Below are positions 3,518 through 20,327 of a stretch of DNA of 52,398 bases, one piece after another. Below the pieces are notes generated by a model, which was not told the origin of the DNA, made no database searches, and worked only from the letters and a program-made list of their open reading frames with translations. The stretch covers positions 1 to 52,398 of the forward strand of contig JAFRKG010000149.1 of assembly GCA_017431845.1 (NCBI GenBank). The letters are read 5' to 3'. Every line of letters begins with the position of its first letter. Positions within the stretch are counted from its first letter, which is position 1. Origin of the DNA: Methanosphaera sp. GTDB taxonomy: Archaea; Methanobacteriota; Methanobacteria; Methanobacteriales; Methanobacteriaceae. The position numbers and the translations under genes were made by a program.

Positions 3518-3759
3518 TATTCCCTCTCCATTGTTATTGCTTTTACTGGACATTCTTCTGCACAGATTCCGCATCCTTTACAGTAATCGTAGTCTGGATC
3601 ATATTCTAGGGATATGCATCCGTCTGGGCAGTATAAATAACAGATTCCGCATCCTATACATTTTTCTTTATCTGCAACTGGTTTGAATGTCCTCCAACTA
3701 CCAGTTTTGTTTCTCCTAGTGCTTCCAGGATCTCTTACAGCGGCTCCTATTGATTTCAT
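3517..3759 (-). CDS. porD: Pyruvate:ferredoxin oxidoreductase, delta subunit (2x[4Fe-4S] ferredoxin)
   Basis: An 80-84 residue ferredoxin-like subunit with two complete CxxCxxCxxxCP motifs ([12 protein letters not shown] and [12 protein letters not shown]). It passes electrons from the TPP intermediate to external ferredoxin. Two starts are possible: ATG 3771 with AAGGAG upstream, or ATG 3759 with GGTGA five bases upstream. The second gives the N-terminus MKSIGA that homologues show and is used here. It sits between porC and porA and overlaps the latter by one base. Confidence 0.92.
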
Positions 3760-14318: not shown

Positions 14319-15608
14319 ATGTCAAATATAATATTAAAAAACTGTAAAACAATAGACAACAAAATTATAAACCTCATAATAGAAGATGGAAAAATAAAAA
14401 AAATAACAAAACAACTACTAAGCTCAGATAAAACAACAGACAAAATAATAAACATAAAAGAAAACATCATCATCCCAGGACTAATTGACACACACGTACA
14501 CCTAAGAGATCCGGGACTAACACATAAAGAAAACTGGACAACAGGAAGCCAAGCAGCAGCACATGGAGGATACACCACCATAATAGACATGCCAAATACC
14601 AGTCCATTAACCAACACACTAAAAAACTTTAAAGAAAAAAAAGAAATAGCCAAAAATAAATCCTATGTAGACTATGCACTACATGCAGGAGTAAAAACAC
14701 AAAAAGATGTTAATGAAATTCTAGAAGAAAAACCCGCATCATACAAAATATTCATGGACCTACACAGTAACCACGAATTATTCGAAATGTTCAAATACGT
14801 ATCAAAAACAGGTAAACCATTAAGCTTACACTGTGAAGACAAAACATTAGTCGATTATAACATTAAAACATTAAGCAGCAATCCAGAAAATGATAAAAAA
14901 ACCATAACATACAGTTATGCAAGAAGTGCACTAGCAGAACTAATAGCAGTAAACAGAGCAATAGAATATGCCAAACAATTAAACTTACAACTACATTTAT
15001 GTCATATCAGTACTAGACAAACACTAGAACTGATAAGAGAAGCAAGAACCAAAATAAATATAAGCATAGAAGCTACACCACACCACATATTCTTAGACAA
15101 CAGCACATATGAAACATATGGAATAAAAGCAAAAACAAATCCTCCACTAAGAGATAAAAATTATAACATTAACATAGAACACTTGAAAGAATTTGATTCA
15201 ATAGGAACCGATCATGCACCACACACACTAGAAGAAAAACTGAAGAACACATGGACTAGTGCTGCAGGAATACCAGGACTAGAAAACACACTACCATTAT
15301 TATTAACAGAAGTAAACAATAATCATATTACATTACAGGAAGTAGTGCGATTAATGAGCACTAATCCGGCAAAAATATTCAAAATTCCAAATAAGGGAGA
15401 TATACAAGTAGGATATGATGCTGATATAACAGTACTTGATATGAAACTTGAAGGAAAAATAGATACTGAAACTTTTTATACGAAAGGCAAGTACACACCA
15501 TTCGAAGAAAGAGAGTATACTGGTAAGAACATAATGACTATAAATAGGGGAAATATTATTTGTGAAAATGATGAAGTTATAAAATGTGAAAATAAGTATG
15601 TGTATTAA
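14319..15608 (+). CDS. pyrC: Dihydroorotase
   Basis: 429 residues, class I (metal-dependent amidohydrolase fold). Metal ligands: DTHVHLRDPG near residue 60, the carbamylated lysine in SYKIFMDLH near 145, HLCHIS near 228 and GTDHAPH near 300. The NPPLRD segment contacts substrate. It closes carbamoyl-aspartate to dihydroorotate in pyrimidine synthesis. Divergent from the HIGH-nucleotidyltransferase gene; no other pyr gene is nearby. The first two thirds use almost exclusively A- or C-ending codons, unlike many neighbours. Confidence 0.93.
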   Translation: MSNIILKNCKTIDNKIINLIIEDGKIKKITKQLLSSDKTTDKIINIKENIIIPGLIDTHVHLRDPGLTHKENWTTGSQAAAHGGYTTIIDMPNTSPLTNTLKNFKEKKEIAKNKSYVDYALHAGVKTQKDVNEILEEKPASYKIFMDLHSNHELFEMFKYVSKTGKPLSLHCEDKTLVDYNIKTLSSNPENDKKTITYSYARSALAELIAVNRAIEYAKQLNLQLHLCHISTRQTLELIREARTKINISIEATPHHIFLDNSTYETYGIKAKTNPPLRDKNYNINIEHLKEFDSIGTDHAPHTLEEKLKNTWTSAAGIPGLENTLPLLLTEVNNNHITLQEVVRLMSTNPAKIFKIPNKGDIQVGYDADITVLDMKLEGKIDTETFYTKGKYTPFEEREYTGKNIMTINRGNIICENDEVIKCENKYVY

Positions 15609-15634: not shown

Positions 15635-15730
15635 ATTAATTAAAAATTTACATTTACTTTTTATAAAATATTTATTCCACAATATTGTAGAGTTATAATT
15701 AGTGGAAATTTAATTAAAATAATTGATGTT

Positions 15731-15737
15731 AAAAAAA
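15731..15737 (-). terminator. Oligo-T terminator for the structured RNA and/or mrtBDGA
   Basis: The complement of an A7 run gives T7 on the minus strand, about 35 nt beyond the closing helix of the structured element at 15772-15949. It could end both that RNA and mrt read-through transcripts. Confidence 0.35.
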
Positions 15738-15771
15738 TAGTTGTTCTAAAGAGAATAAACATAAAGGTAAT

Positions 15772-15949
15772 AGTTTCCGATGTATGAACTATAATCCCTT
15801 AATTCCCAGTAAAAGTATAATAATAGTTTGAATTATCGGAAAATGCAGACCGTACCTCGTCTACGAATGTAATACGGGTCGTACCTTGCGATTCCAATAT
15901 ACTAACTATTATTGAATATATTTCAATACTTAAAGTTTACTCGGAAACT
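15772..15949 (-). ncRNA. Candidate structured RNA (~180 nt) downstream of mrtA
   Basis: A segment richer in G+C than its surroundings, with nested complementarity. The closing helix is nine perfect pairs, AGTTTCCGA 15772-15780 with TCGGAAACT 15941-15949, and continues inward (GTA/TAC, AACT/AGTT). Inside are a 10-bp helix (15819-15828 with 15904-15913), TCGGAA 15836-15841 with TTCCAA 15892-15897 (one GU if minus-strand RNA), GCA/TGC (15845-15847 with 15887-15889) and GACC-GTA/TACGGGTC (15848-15854 with 15873-15880). The helices nest into one rod. The minus strand is preferred because a TATA box sits about 25 nt before 15949 and a T7 run follows. It does not show RNase P, SRP or 5S hallmarks. 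Function unknown. Confidence 0.5.
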
Positions 15950-15971
15950 TCACTATTATATATATTCCTTG

Positions 15972-15982
15972 TTATATATAAA
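15972..15982 (-). promoter_or_regulatory. TATA box of the structured RNA
   Basis: The minus strand reads TTTATATATAA. Its centre is about 27 nt upstream of base 15949, the first base of the closing helix, which is the spacing expected between an archaeal TATA box and the transcription start. It lies about 35 bases after the mrtA stop. Confidence 0.4.
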
Positions 15983-16014
15983 TGATACCTTTATATTCGT
16001 AAATTATTACCCGC

Positions 16015-17673
16015 TTATAATGCAGGGTTAATTAAGTCACGTTCTCCGCTAGGCATGAATTCTCTAATTGCACCTTTTGCAATACATGCTCTTGGGTTAG
16101 CCCAATCGAATGTTAAGTTGTTGTCTGCAAATGCAACTTTGATTAATGGGTTAAGTGCAAATGCGTCTCCTCTTGCTGCGTGAGGTGCTTGAGCAATACC
16201 TGCATATTCAGGTTGGTGACCTACGTTCATTGCGTAGTTAGGGTAGTTAGGACCTCTTAATTCGTGGATGAGACCTTCGTCACTTCTTATGGATAAGGAG
16301 TTGGATGATCCACATTGATCTTGTAAGTCGTAACCGTAGAATCCTAATCTGCTGTGTCCTTCTTTGTGTAATAATTGACTTAAGTACCATCCGTTTACAC
16401 CTGCGTTAGAGTTAGCAGTTGCGAATGCTACTGAACAACCTGCACCTGCTGCAGCTACACATGCTCTTTGTGATCCACCGAAGTGGTCTTCGAGTGCTGC
16501 TGGGGTTTCGTATTGTTCTAATGCGTAAAGGGTTACTTCACTTGCAATGTCTCTTACTACTTCTGTTGAAGCTTCAGCTTGACATAATCCACCATAGTTT
16601 TTCTCTACATAGTCTTTACCGTAGTATACGAAGTCGTCTAAGATTTCGTCAGTGTATGCTGCTGTAGCATATTGTGTGAATCCTACACCACCAGACATGT
16701 ATGAACCTAACCATACTTGGTCGTATAATGGGGATGCTGCACCGATTACTTCTAATGAGATTTTTGCAGGGTCATCTGATACTCTGCTAGTTTGTACCAT
16801 ATCAGAAATTGCACCGAAGGTTACTCCTCCAGGTTCGTTAGGACCTCTTGCTCTTCTTGCTGGCATTGCACTAGCCATAGAGATTACGTCTGCGTGTTTT
16901 GCTGCGTATGAGAAATCTGCAATTGCTGCTTCTCCTGCACATAATTTGTATGCAGAGATGAAACTCATACCGATTTGCATAGCAGACCATCTTGAGGTGG
17001 TACCACCGTCACAAGCACGTACTACTAATGTAGGTACTCTTGATACTTGGTATGTTTTTTTACCTATGTATTTTTTGAGTTGTTCTGCTTGTTCTTCAGG
17101 GAATTCTTTGTTGATGTCGATTACGAATCTTGAATCTAATTGATCTACTAATTCGTCGTCACCAGAGAATACTTTTGCGTAGGAATCTACTACTAATCCT
17201 GGGTCTACTTCTACCATGTGTTCTTGTACTACTGCTCCTCCAGGGAGTGCGTGGTTGATTGTTTCTAAGTACTCGTTGATTGTTTCAGGAGTTACTTCTA
17301 CACCTAACCTTTGTTCAAGTACACCGTGAGCTGTATCCATACCTACGATAATTGTTCTTTTTATATCGTCTACTAATTGTTGGATAGCTGAGTTGTTACA
17401 GAAGTGAAGGTCGTCCCCTTCTACGTATGTGTCTGTTCCAGATACTTGGTATGCCATTAATTTTCTTTGTCCGAGAGGTACACCTATGTCTGGGTTGTAG
17501 AATGGTAATCCTCCACGAGCTTCCATAGCTTTTTCTGCTTGTTCATTAAATTCTCTTTTTCTTGCGGATTGTTCCCATCCACCATAGCAGTAATATTTAG
17601 TGTTTTGTTCTTCAGGGTCTTCATCAAATTTTTCTTGTAAAGCCTTTAAGAATAATTTTTTCTCATCTACCAT
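16015..17673 (-). CDS. mrtA: Methyl-coenzyme M reductase II, alpha subunit
   Basis: 552 residues, full-length MCR alpha. The sites that carry modified residues in MCR are present: YAAKHADV (N-methyl-His), [12 protein letters not shown] (5-methyl-Arg, target of Mmp10), [14 protein letters not shown] (Gln site, nickel F430 contact), [17 protein letters not shown] (thio-Gly and S-methyl-Cys regions). [13 protein letters not shown] and [16 protein letters not shown] are also diagnostic. It catalyses methyl-CoM + CoB to methane + heterodisulfide. Isoenzyme II is inferred from the B-D-G-A gene order without mcrC. It overlaps mrtG by one base (TAATG). The start has AGGTGG upstream. Confidence 0.95.
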
Positions 17674-18470
17674 TAGTTACCACCTAATTTACTTTGTAAA
17701 TCGTCGTTGAATACATCTAAACCATATCCACCAGCAGTTCTTGCAAAGTGTACTTCTTCTACTACTTTAATAACTTCTGGGTCGTCTCTTAAACTTACGT
17801 TATCATATCTGTAAATAGTTGTGATTTCTTTAAGTTTGTCTTCTGGTAATGGTTCTCCTACTGATATAGGTTCGTCGAGTTCTACACCTACTTGGTTTTT
17901 TACGTATTTAACTACTCCTTCATCTTCATCATATACGTATCTTTGTAATGCGTCGAACATTAAACCGTTTTCATCGAGTCTTAATGAGTGACCGTGTACT
18001 GTTGCTCCTCTTAATCCAGTTTTTGCTGGGTCGAAGAATTCGGATTCCATTAATAATTTGGAAGTTTCTTCTAAGTCGGATTCTCTCATTTCTACTACTT
18101 GTCTTCCTGAGAGTGTACCTGTGTCTACTCCTCTGAATCTTCTCATGTATGATCTTGCTCTGTCGTATGGTTGAGCTGGTGCGTTATACATTGAGTCTGC
18201 GAATTGTACGTATCTTATACGAATTCCTTTTTTTGCTCCGTCGATTGGTTCTACGAAGTCTTTCATATCATCTGCTTCAAAGTCCATTTCATCGAGAGGT
18301 GGGTGTACTGTTTTGTAACCTTCCCCTGGGTTTCTGTGACTTAAAAGTTTTACTATATCGTCATCTGCAATACTTCTTAGTATTTCGAGTTCATAATCTG
18401 GGTTTAAGTGTTTTCTACGGTTTTCCGCAATTTTACTTTCCCCAGGATAAAATTGTACGTCATATGCCAT
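17673..18470 (-). CDS. mrtG: Methyl-coenzyme M reductase II, gamma subunit
   Basis: 265 residues, usual McrG size. It begins [21 protein letters not shown] and contains [44 protein letters not shown], the conserved core. Its C-terminal part ([18 protein letters not shown]) lines the active-site channel. It forms the alpha2beta2gamma2 enzyme with MrtA/MrtB. Six bases separate it from mrtD. Confidence 0.95.
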
Positions 18471-18476
18471 TTACAA

Positions 18477-18983
18477 TCACCTGATATATCTAACAGTTTC
18501 TGATGATTTTGCGTTTGGATCTACTAATCCTATTAGTCTTGAATCTATTTTGTCTTCAAATCCTTCACCGTATTTCATGTAATCTGAAACGGAAGTTTGA
18601 GTTTTATTAAATATTCCAACTTTAATATCATAACCAAAGTTTAGAGTATTATCCAAAATTTCATCAGCCTTTTCTACAAAATCTTCAAGATTGTCTAATT
18701 GGACTGTTAAAATGATTTCACCAACAGAAACACGTAGTGGAACGTCGTTACCTTTTACGTTGATAGTTTTTCTATCTGTATGGTTAACTGGCAATCCCTT
18801 TGCTGGACCAAAGTTAACTATTGTAGGTAAGGATTCACCATTAAGTAATACTCTTAAAACTCCTTCCAACTGCAATATTTGGTTTAATATTTTTTCAGTT
18901 GTTGTTGGTTTTAATATCCTATATGGAAAAATTTTCACATCAGTTGCTTTAATGATATTTTGTTCTTCTACTTCTGCTGACAT
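18477..18983 (-). CDS. mrtD: Methyl-coenzyme M reductase operon protein D
   Basis: 168 residues of the McrD family: IFPYRILKPTTTEKILNQI near residue 18, GLPVNHTDRK and the C-terminal GLVDPNAKSSETVRYI. McrD is not part of the mature enzyme and is thought to act in assembly or activation of MCR. It lies between mrtB and mrtG as in all mrt operons. Confidence 0.9.
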   Translation of the reverse strand: MSAEVEEQNIIKATDVKIFPYRILKPTTTEKILNQILQLEGVLRVLLNGESLPTIVNFGPAKGLPVNHTDRKTINVKGNDVPLRVSVGEIILTVQLDNLEDFVEKADEILDNTLNFGYDIKVGIFNKTQTSVSDYMKYGEGFEDKIDSRLIGLVDPNAKSSETVRYIR

Positions 18984-18998
18984 TATTTAACATCCTAC

Positions 18999-20327
18999 TT
19001 AGATTTTATCTTTTATTTGACTTGCTCCTTCAGCAACATATTTTACTGGTTCTCTTAAATTGTCTACACTACCATATACTTCTCCAACTAAAGCAGATGT
19101 TGCTTCTACAGAGAACATTTGTGTACCTGAATCTAAGGACATTGCTGCTGTATCACATGGAATTGCGTATCCTTTACTGTGTCTTGTTACTACGTGGTTA
19201 CCGTTGAAGATACCTGGTCCTCCTCCACCGTATATACCGTGTGAGAAGAAACTCATACCTACACCTACACCCATTACTCTACCAAAGTCTACACCAGGTA
19301 AACCTGCTTCGTATTCGAGAATATCGTTGAAGTATAGGATGGATGATGCGATACCTTGTGCTGCTCTTGCTGCACCTACGTTTACGATAACGGAAGCTAC
19401 GAGACCTGCTGCTGCATATGCGTTCCATAATGCCCAGTCAACTGGTTCATATAATTTGTATCCGGAAGGTAATGTTTCTTTTACTTTGATTACTCCATCG
19501 TCTAATGCTCTTGCTAATAATGCTACTACTACATCTCCAAGAGTTCCTTTACCATTTTCTTTAACTAAATCGTAAACTAAGTTGTTTGCGTTTAATCCTT
19601 GGAATGCTAAACCTAATAAGTGGCTTCTTTCGAATGCACCTATTGCGTCACCCATTTCGAATGTTGCAGTTTGTTCAAGGATGGATGATAAAGCTACTGC
19701 GTTAAGAGTGTTTTTCTTAGTGATTGCTACTACGTGGTTAGCACCAATGTTTCTTAGGCTGTATCCTAAACCTTCAAGGTGAGTTGTTTGACCTAAAAGG
19801 GTTGTGATTGCTCCACCTAATTTTACGTTATGTGGGTATCCACCCATAGCAGCTGTTTTAATTTCTGATGCTTGATATTTGTTAATATCAAATGTATCAA
19901 GAATAGCTTGGATTAAAGCTGAACCTGTTGCTAATGGTGCTACAGAATAGTCACCAGAAACAGCTAATCTTTCTGATGGTACTTGTACTAATACTTGTTT
20001 TCCACCATTTAATAATTCAAGGTTGAAATCATCATCAGCGTCAACTTTTAACATTTTTGACATTTTGTCTGCAATTGCATCTGCATTTCCTACGATATCT
20101 AATTCTAATTCCCTACCAGGAATAAAGTTTGCTTTTCCACCGTAAGCACCGTTTGCTAATGATTTTTCTATTCCTGCAAGGTTTACAGCAACAGAACGCT
20201 TAATTTCTTGTATAATATTTTTAATTGTAGGGTTTACTACTGGACTAATTGCTTCTAGAGGTACTTGTTCTTCTAAAAGTTTTCCATCTACCCCATATAA
20301 ATCTATTTTGTCTTCATATGTTGGCAT
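18999..20327 (-). CDS. mrtB: Methyl-coenzyme M reductase II, beta subunit
   Basis: 442 residues, complete. It begins [29 protein letters not shown]. The C-terminal half carries YNFD-equivalent [47 protein letters not shown], the part that closes the channel and contacts coenzyme B. First gene of the operon, with AGAGGTG nine bases before ATG. Confidence 0.95.

Follow-up and report, generated by a model that had tools for sequence, protein, structure and literature searches.

Judging from sequence comparison, the minus strand between mrtA and pyrC of Methanosphaera sp. carries a real, conserved structured RNA, and we give about even chances to the reading that it is a structured 3′-UTR element of the mrtBDGA message. 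Within the genomes searched, the element is confined to Methanosphaera. The window, i.e., the whole stretch of DNA that was analysed, is 52,398 nt long. An earlier note on it had proposed an undescribed structured RNA of about 180 nt at 15772..15949; homologues and covariation were found and no Rfam family fits, so that proposal stands, whereas its length does not, as an outer helix makes the RNA about 240-270 nt long and places both ends beyond that interval. MCR, the methane-making enzyme, is one of the most abundant proteins in methanogens, and to our knowledge little is known about the control of its message. A conserved, covarying RNA attached to the MCR operon would provide a concrete starting point for learning how MCR levels are set in gut methanogens.

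The genes around the element are the following.

18999-20327, minus strand: mrtB (ORF and NCBIfam profile above cut-off)
18477-18983, minus strand: mrtD (ORF and NCBIfam profile above cut-off)
17673-18470, minus strand: mrtG (ORF and NCBIfam profile above cut-off)
16015..17673, minus strand: mrtA, which encodes the MCR alpha subunit and comes last in the B-D-G-A operon (ORF and NCBIfam profile above cut-off)
14319..15608, plus strand: pyrC, convergent neighbour of the RNA element (TIGR00857, 385 bits over the cut-off)

The NCBIfam profiles that pass their cut-offs for the MCR operon in the window are TIGR03256, TIGR03257, TIGR03260 and TIGR03259, and the operon lacks a C gene, which we take to mark the MCR-II (mrt) type. 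An MCR alpha gene is present in 18 of the 20 genomes of the genus, 15 with one match and 3 with two matches that cover different parts of the protein, and thus the MCR operon appears to be single in the genus. No MCR alpha match was obtained in G001 and G002 (rated 97% and 91% complete), probably owing to assembly or binning gaps.

The element itself comprises the following parts, listed from 5′ to 3′.

15986..15998, minus strand: U, 5′ arm of the outer closing helix (window fold, permutation test, double changes)
15950..15985, minus strand: internal hairpin holding the TATA-like TTTATATA (15982-15975), with arms 15985-15973 and 15964-15950 (fold and arm covariation)
15938..15949, minus strand: S, conserved 5′ strand with partner B or, alternatively, A (near-invariant in the alignment; permutation test)
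15813..15931, minus strand: rod, made of P2 (15931-15926/15818-15813), P3 (15913-15902/15830-15819) and P4 (15899-15892/15841-15834) (fold and covariation)
15845..15889, minus strand: near-symmetric hairpin of the apical core, whose bulged A residues are invariant (covariation and model R2)
15802..15815, minus strand: A, the conserved CUUUUACUGGGAAU, alternative partner of S (complementarity)
15772..15784, minus strand: B, 3′ partner of S, where S:B is the closing helix of the earlier note (fold and covariation)
15757..15769, minus strand: D, 3′ arm of the outer closing helix (window fold, permutation test, double changes)
15731..15737, minus strand: T7 run (sequence; a T5-T9 run occurs in 15/15 rows)

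These parts are nested, with the outer helix U:D enclosing the small hairpin, the S:B helix, the long rod and the apical core. From end to end of the outer helix, the element measures 242 nt in the window and 240-258 nt in the 15 rows used for the helix tests, which leave out G000 (same species as G010 and identical over the 201 bases compared) and G012, whose outer elements are unrecognisable and which was kept in the core model. Compared with the same-species G010 (L009), the window is identical over 201 bases, with one T different near 15757-15759, and has a T7 where G010 has a T8.

The earlier note had named a folding excess over dinucleotide shuffles, homologues in Methanosphaera and compensating base changes as checks, and all three were found. 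The 178-nt interval 15772..15949 gave z scores of −3.35 (minus strand) and −3.59 (plus strand), and a 284-nt stretch gave −3.91 and −3.78, respectively, with 0 of 200 shuffles as low on either strand in both cases. Folding energy alone therefore does not discriminate between the strands. On the minus strand, the cells from P3 to the core show 36 G-U and 1 A-C, figures that rise to 50 and 5 when all 45 modelled pairs, S:A and P2 among them, are counted. Because each of these G-U pairs would turn into an A-C mismatch if the plus strand were the RNA, we assign the RNA to the minus strand, with a count that is tilted that way by a structure itself chosen by folding the minus strand. The mid-element is indeed richer in G+C than its surroundings (0.35-0.37 vs. 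0.16-0.23 in the AT-rich gap towards pyrC), as had been remarked.

In a DNA search, 15 of the 20 genus genomes matched at E ≤1.2e-12; these 15 include the own genome and one of the same species. A covariance model (R1), built from 14 rows with S:A in its structure, matched 17 of the 20, including G011 (outside the model) at E 3.9e-23 and G012 at E 1.2e-5. On 118 other genomes of the family, R1 gave one match, at E 0.095 (G067/L054), which lacks the core, has an unrelated fold behind mcrA and was rejected as a homologue. A core model (R2, 16 rows) with strict filters found 17 of 151 genomes of the phylum, every one Methanosphaera, and no element in the 131 others; with laxer filters, the best score among 11 other-genus genomes was E 0.96 (G127). 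By these searches, the element appears confined to Methanosphaera among the genomes covered. The three genus genomes in which it was missed are G001 and G002, which hold no mrtA, and G013, which has mrtA with no detectable element. Behind mrtA of G013 lies a strongly folded stretch (L058 900-1500, minus strand; z −5.1, 60 shuffles), which was rejected as a homologue since it has zero sequence match to the element. In G012 (L053/L057), the core hairpin is kept in a different, longer scaffold, with a predicted helix closing near its end. An MrtA tree (17 rows, 12 from the genus) groups G012 with G011, whose element is complete (support 95/91), so that the outer part of G012 has probably been altered secondarily; the same tree gives no resolved placement for G013. 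A mobile-element inverted repeat was also considered and rejected, as the genome has one strong match only (next best E 0.124) and the site behind mrtA is fixed. No viral contig had an exact match to the core pattern.

Among its helices, U:D is, on the comparative evidence, the best-supported covarying one. It forms 13 bp in the window (15998-15986/15769-15757) and 11-19 bp per row. This helix was spotted by eye outward of the first interval and then tested in all combinations of U and D across the species. The mean energy was −15.9 kcal/mol when both arms came from one species and −9.9 kcal/mol when they were swapped, with 0 of 10,000 permutations as good, in a test that ignores the species tree; control segments farther downstream gave 7938, 9219 and 2294 of 10,000, and the control pairs S:D (273/10,000) and U:B (785/10,000) came out lower than expected. 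Double changes occur in 17 of 19 columns of U:D; the double-change columns of U:D, of the hairpin and of S:B use each row's best duplex, so that the permutation test alone controls for the choice of pairs. The 9-bp closing helix of the earlier note does have its arms, AGTTTCCGA/TCGGAAACT at 15772-15780 and 15941-15949, but it does not close the structure, being enclosed by U:D. This S:B helix covaries as well (15/10,000 permutations as good; 8/5,000 in another run), mostly through length changes and with a single double-changed column.

The rod carries further covariation. The 10-bp helix 15819-15828/15904-15913 and the helix 15836-15841/15892-15897 noticed at first are present in both sequence and fold, and a 3-bp helix noted with them was located at 15889-15887/15847-15845. 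For the apical arms 15848-15854/15873-15880, a folded hairpin exists, but covariation gives a different pairing, namely 15885-15883/15850-15848, 15881-15874/15860-15851 with a bulged A, and 15872-15869/15864-15861. In alignment A1 (14 rows), P3, P4 and the core together have 30 pairs; these are standard in 97.4% of cells, and 13 of them show double changes, vs. a shuffle mean of 4.3 and 0 of 500 shuffles as high; slid control structures gave standard pairs in 29-44% of cells and 1-5 double-changed pairs. The double changes are distributed as 1 among the 8 pairs of P3 and 12 among the 22 pairs of P4 and the core. P2 has none and is misaligned in 3 of 14 rows. When S:A and P2 are included, 45 pairs are standard in 96.5% of cells, and the 9 pairs of S:A show zero double changes. 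The core alone (16 rows) has 20 pairs, paired in 97.8% of cells, 11 of them with double changes (0/500 shuffles), as well as 19 invariant columns. GUACG is present on both core strands in the window, and each strand in most rows reads A-GGU-A-CG-RYC with nearly symmetric bulged A residues, a symmetry that suggests a two-fold symmetric protein as a putative binder. The core lies 124-141 nt behind the mrtA stop in the usual loci and 213 nt behind it in G012.

The position of these helices argues for a 3′ UTR. mrtA lies directly upstream on the same strand in every holder of the element (17/17), and the distance from the mrtA stop to the start of U is 16 nt in the window and 8-25 nt across the 15 rows. 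The element can therefore be read as the 3′ UTR of the message from mrtBDGA, and the gap leaves no space for a promoter between stop and U. The interval from stop to U has no T5 run in 13 of 15 rows. A promoter within the mrtA gene is conceivable. Folds predicted from the stop codon form U:D in 14 of 15 rows, L051 being the exception. All 15 rows have a T5-T9 run whose first base lies anywhere from 1 nt within D to 19 nt beyond its end, and the T7 run (15737-15731) is probably the 3′ end, or terminator U-tract. The earlier note had placed this run right after the last paired base; the run is there, but it starts 34 nt past 15772 rather than directly after it. In the proposed mechanism, RNA polymerase would read from mrtA into the element, the outer helix would form near the U-tract where the transcript ends, and the folded rod would shield the 3′ end of the MCR message. 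A putative protein on the invariant, nearly two-fold symmetric bulged-A core would tune message stability or output, and after cleavage, the element could persist as a stable RNA of about 260 nt. Counting against a plain 3′-end stabiliser, the sequence conservation in S, A and the core exceeds what such a role needs. Counting against the 3′-UTR reading as such are the invariant TTATATA described below, the mrtA of G013 without the element, the L051 fold without U:D, and the 19 nt between D and the T run in the window.

Appreciably less probable, while still a serious contender, is an independent small RNA of about 210 nt that would be transcribed from the TATA-like sequence at 15982-15975, start near 15950, end at the T run, and act in trans. 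TTATATA is invariant in 15/15 rows, 32-34 nt before the G of S, while adjacent columns vary, and this points to a promoter that would give rise to a second, shorter RNA. The T run near the end of the element also fits. The convergent pyrC leaves no downstream gene for cis control in most genomes, and folding from near that start still gives the rod. However, the best covarying helix uses U, which lies upstream of the TATA box, so that an RNA started at the box would be without one of its arms. In addition, the TATA segment itself covaries as a hairpin (2/10,000 permutations as good; double changes in 3 of 12 listed columns), and from this covariation we conclude that the TATA-like sequence is the 5′ arm of an internal hairpin, possibly in a double role as promoter and hairpin arm. 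The earlier note had read a TATA box about 25 nt before the first paired base; TTTATATA is present at 15982-15975, but the first covarying paired base lies upstream of it. Between the two origins that the note left open, a processed 3′ UTR thus fits better than an independent promoter. A convincing archaeal TATA box can evidently be an RNA hairpin arm, which calls for caution in promoter annotation in AT-rich archaea.

It is unlikely, though conceivable, that both transcripts exist as two isoforms, such that mrt read-through RNA would fold U:D and S:B, the TATA-started RNA lacking U would fold S:A, and the promoter would set the shape. In 15/15 rows, A and B are each complementary to S, with 0-2 of 200 shuffles as good for S:A. 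When folded from near S, S:A is predicted to exceed S:B in 14 of 15 rows, and when folded from the stop codon, S:B exceeds S:A in 13 of 15 (exceptions L022 and L051), making a two-state RNA possible in these models. However, the expected pairs of S:A number fewer than 2 in 5 of the 14 rows, where S is mostly self-folded, S:A was found without covariation (6106/10,000 permutations as good in 15 nearly invariant rows), and energy models are no proof of a switch. The terminator hairpin V:D (V lying between A and B) that would accompany S:A is predicted in most truncated folds, but was rejected at 3577/10,000 permutations (inner arms 6411, outer arms 1661). With longer arms that include the end of A, 259/10,000 and 397/5,000 permutations were as good, leaving this longer V:D a weak candidate. 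RNAalifold gave zero pairs on the 3′ part of the element; that stretch is too variable for a plain alignment. A bolder and slightly less likely version holds that one sequence behind the apparently sole MCR operon would yield the two RNAs (read-through with U:D and S:B vs. TATA-started without U and with S:A), whose ratio would report mrt transcription and feed back on synthesis of the methane enzyme via the core protein.

We regard as improbable an ordinary terminator hairpin of the mrt operon with no further function. The outer helix does lie near the T run, directly behind the operon, and 4 of 16 stretches behind mrtA in other genera also fold (z ≤ −2.6), some of them containing coding sequence or tandem repeats, so that a folded 3′ region behind mrtA is not unusual. 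However, the element has no match in the genomes from which those stretches come, and a terminator has no need of the 19 invariant core columns. In another genus (L087), a tandem array of CTAGAA-type units behind mrtA, z −8.1, was seen, where the array probably inflates the folding score. A plus-strand RNA (the 3′ UTR of pyrC) or a DNA-level repeat is very improbable, since, even though the plus strand also folds better than its shuffles, the G-U and A-C counts given above favour the minus strand within the bias stated there, the single genome copy argues against a dispersed repeat, and in G016 an extra ORF parts the element from pyrC while the element stays behind mrtA. This same-strand ORF of G016 (L056 3656-4318) encodes 220 aa with an N-terminal Cys motif and Asn/Gln/Tyr-rich repeats, and the spacing is too short for such an ORF at the other loci where pyrC was found.

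Returning to the element as a 3′-UTR structure, its comparison with described RNAs gave no counterpart: Rfam has no matching family, and the literature searched yielded no description of it. Rfam 15 has 0 matches at the gathering threshold in the whole window, and with E up to 10 on 15680-16030, a nos_TCE fragment was the sole match (18.8 bits vs. 60). No description of this RNA appears among the literature matches listed (e.g., the best 20 of 63 and the best 10 of 537), nor in the matching passages of PMC7776873 and PMC8040213; the latter mentions 5 archaeal candidate structures, so an earlier listing of this RNA is possible. The main text of PMC2864571 contains no word starting with Methano.

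We note likenesses to, and differences from, several known systems. First, archaeal RNase P RNA (RF00373) is likewise a structured archaeal RNA of similar length (model of 288 positions), but the genome's own copy lies on another contig, C172 (155.7 bits). RF00373 has no match in the window, and neither do the archaeal SRP RNA and 5S rRNA families at gathering score, consistent with the remark in the earlier note that hallmarks of these three RNAs are lacking. Second, in the expression platforms of riboswitches, one strand has two alternative partners, as S may have here. The switching of S is a prediction, however, and the downstream gene that a riboswitch controls in cis was not found, pyrC being convergent in all 15 holder loci where it was found; the contigs of the 2 remaining holders end, and in G016 the extra same-strand ORF intervenes between the element and pyrC. 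Third, 3′-UTR-derived small RNAs occur in bacteria and archaea, and the element resembles them in being structured, in its place after an operon, and in having a terminator-like U-tract and possibly an internal promoter, whereas it is unlike any Rfam family in sequence and fold and is known from sequence alone. Fourth, archaeal 3′ ends are formed by a U-tract and the factor aCPSF1 (PMC8716108), and the element likewise has, in 15/15 rows, a T5-T9 run at its end or close to it; in the parts of that paper that we cite, the U-tract and the factor are the only components, whereas here a long covarying fold with a conserved core precedes the U-tract.
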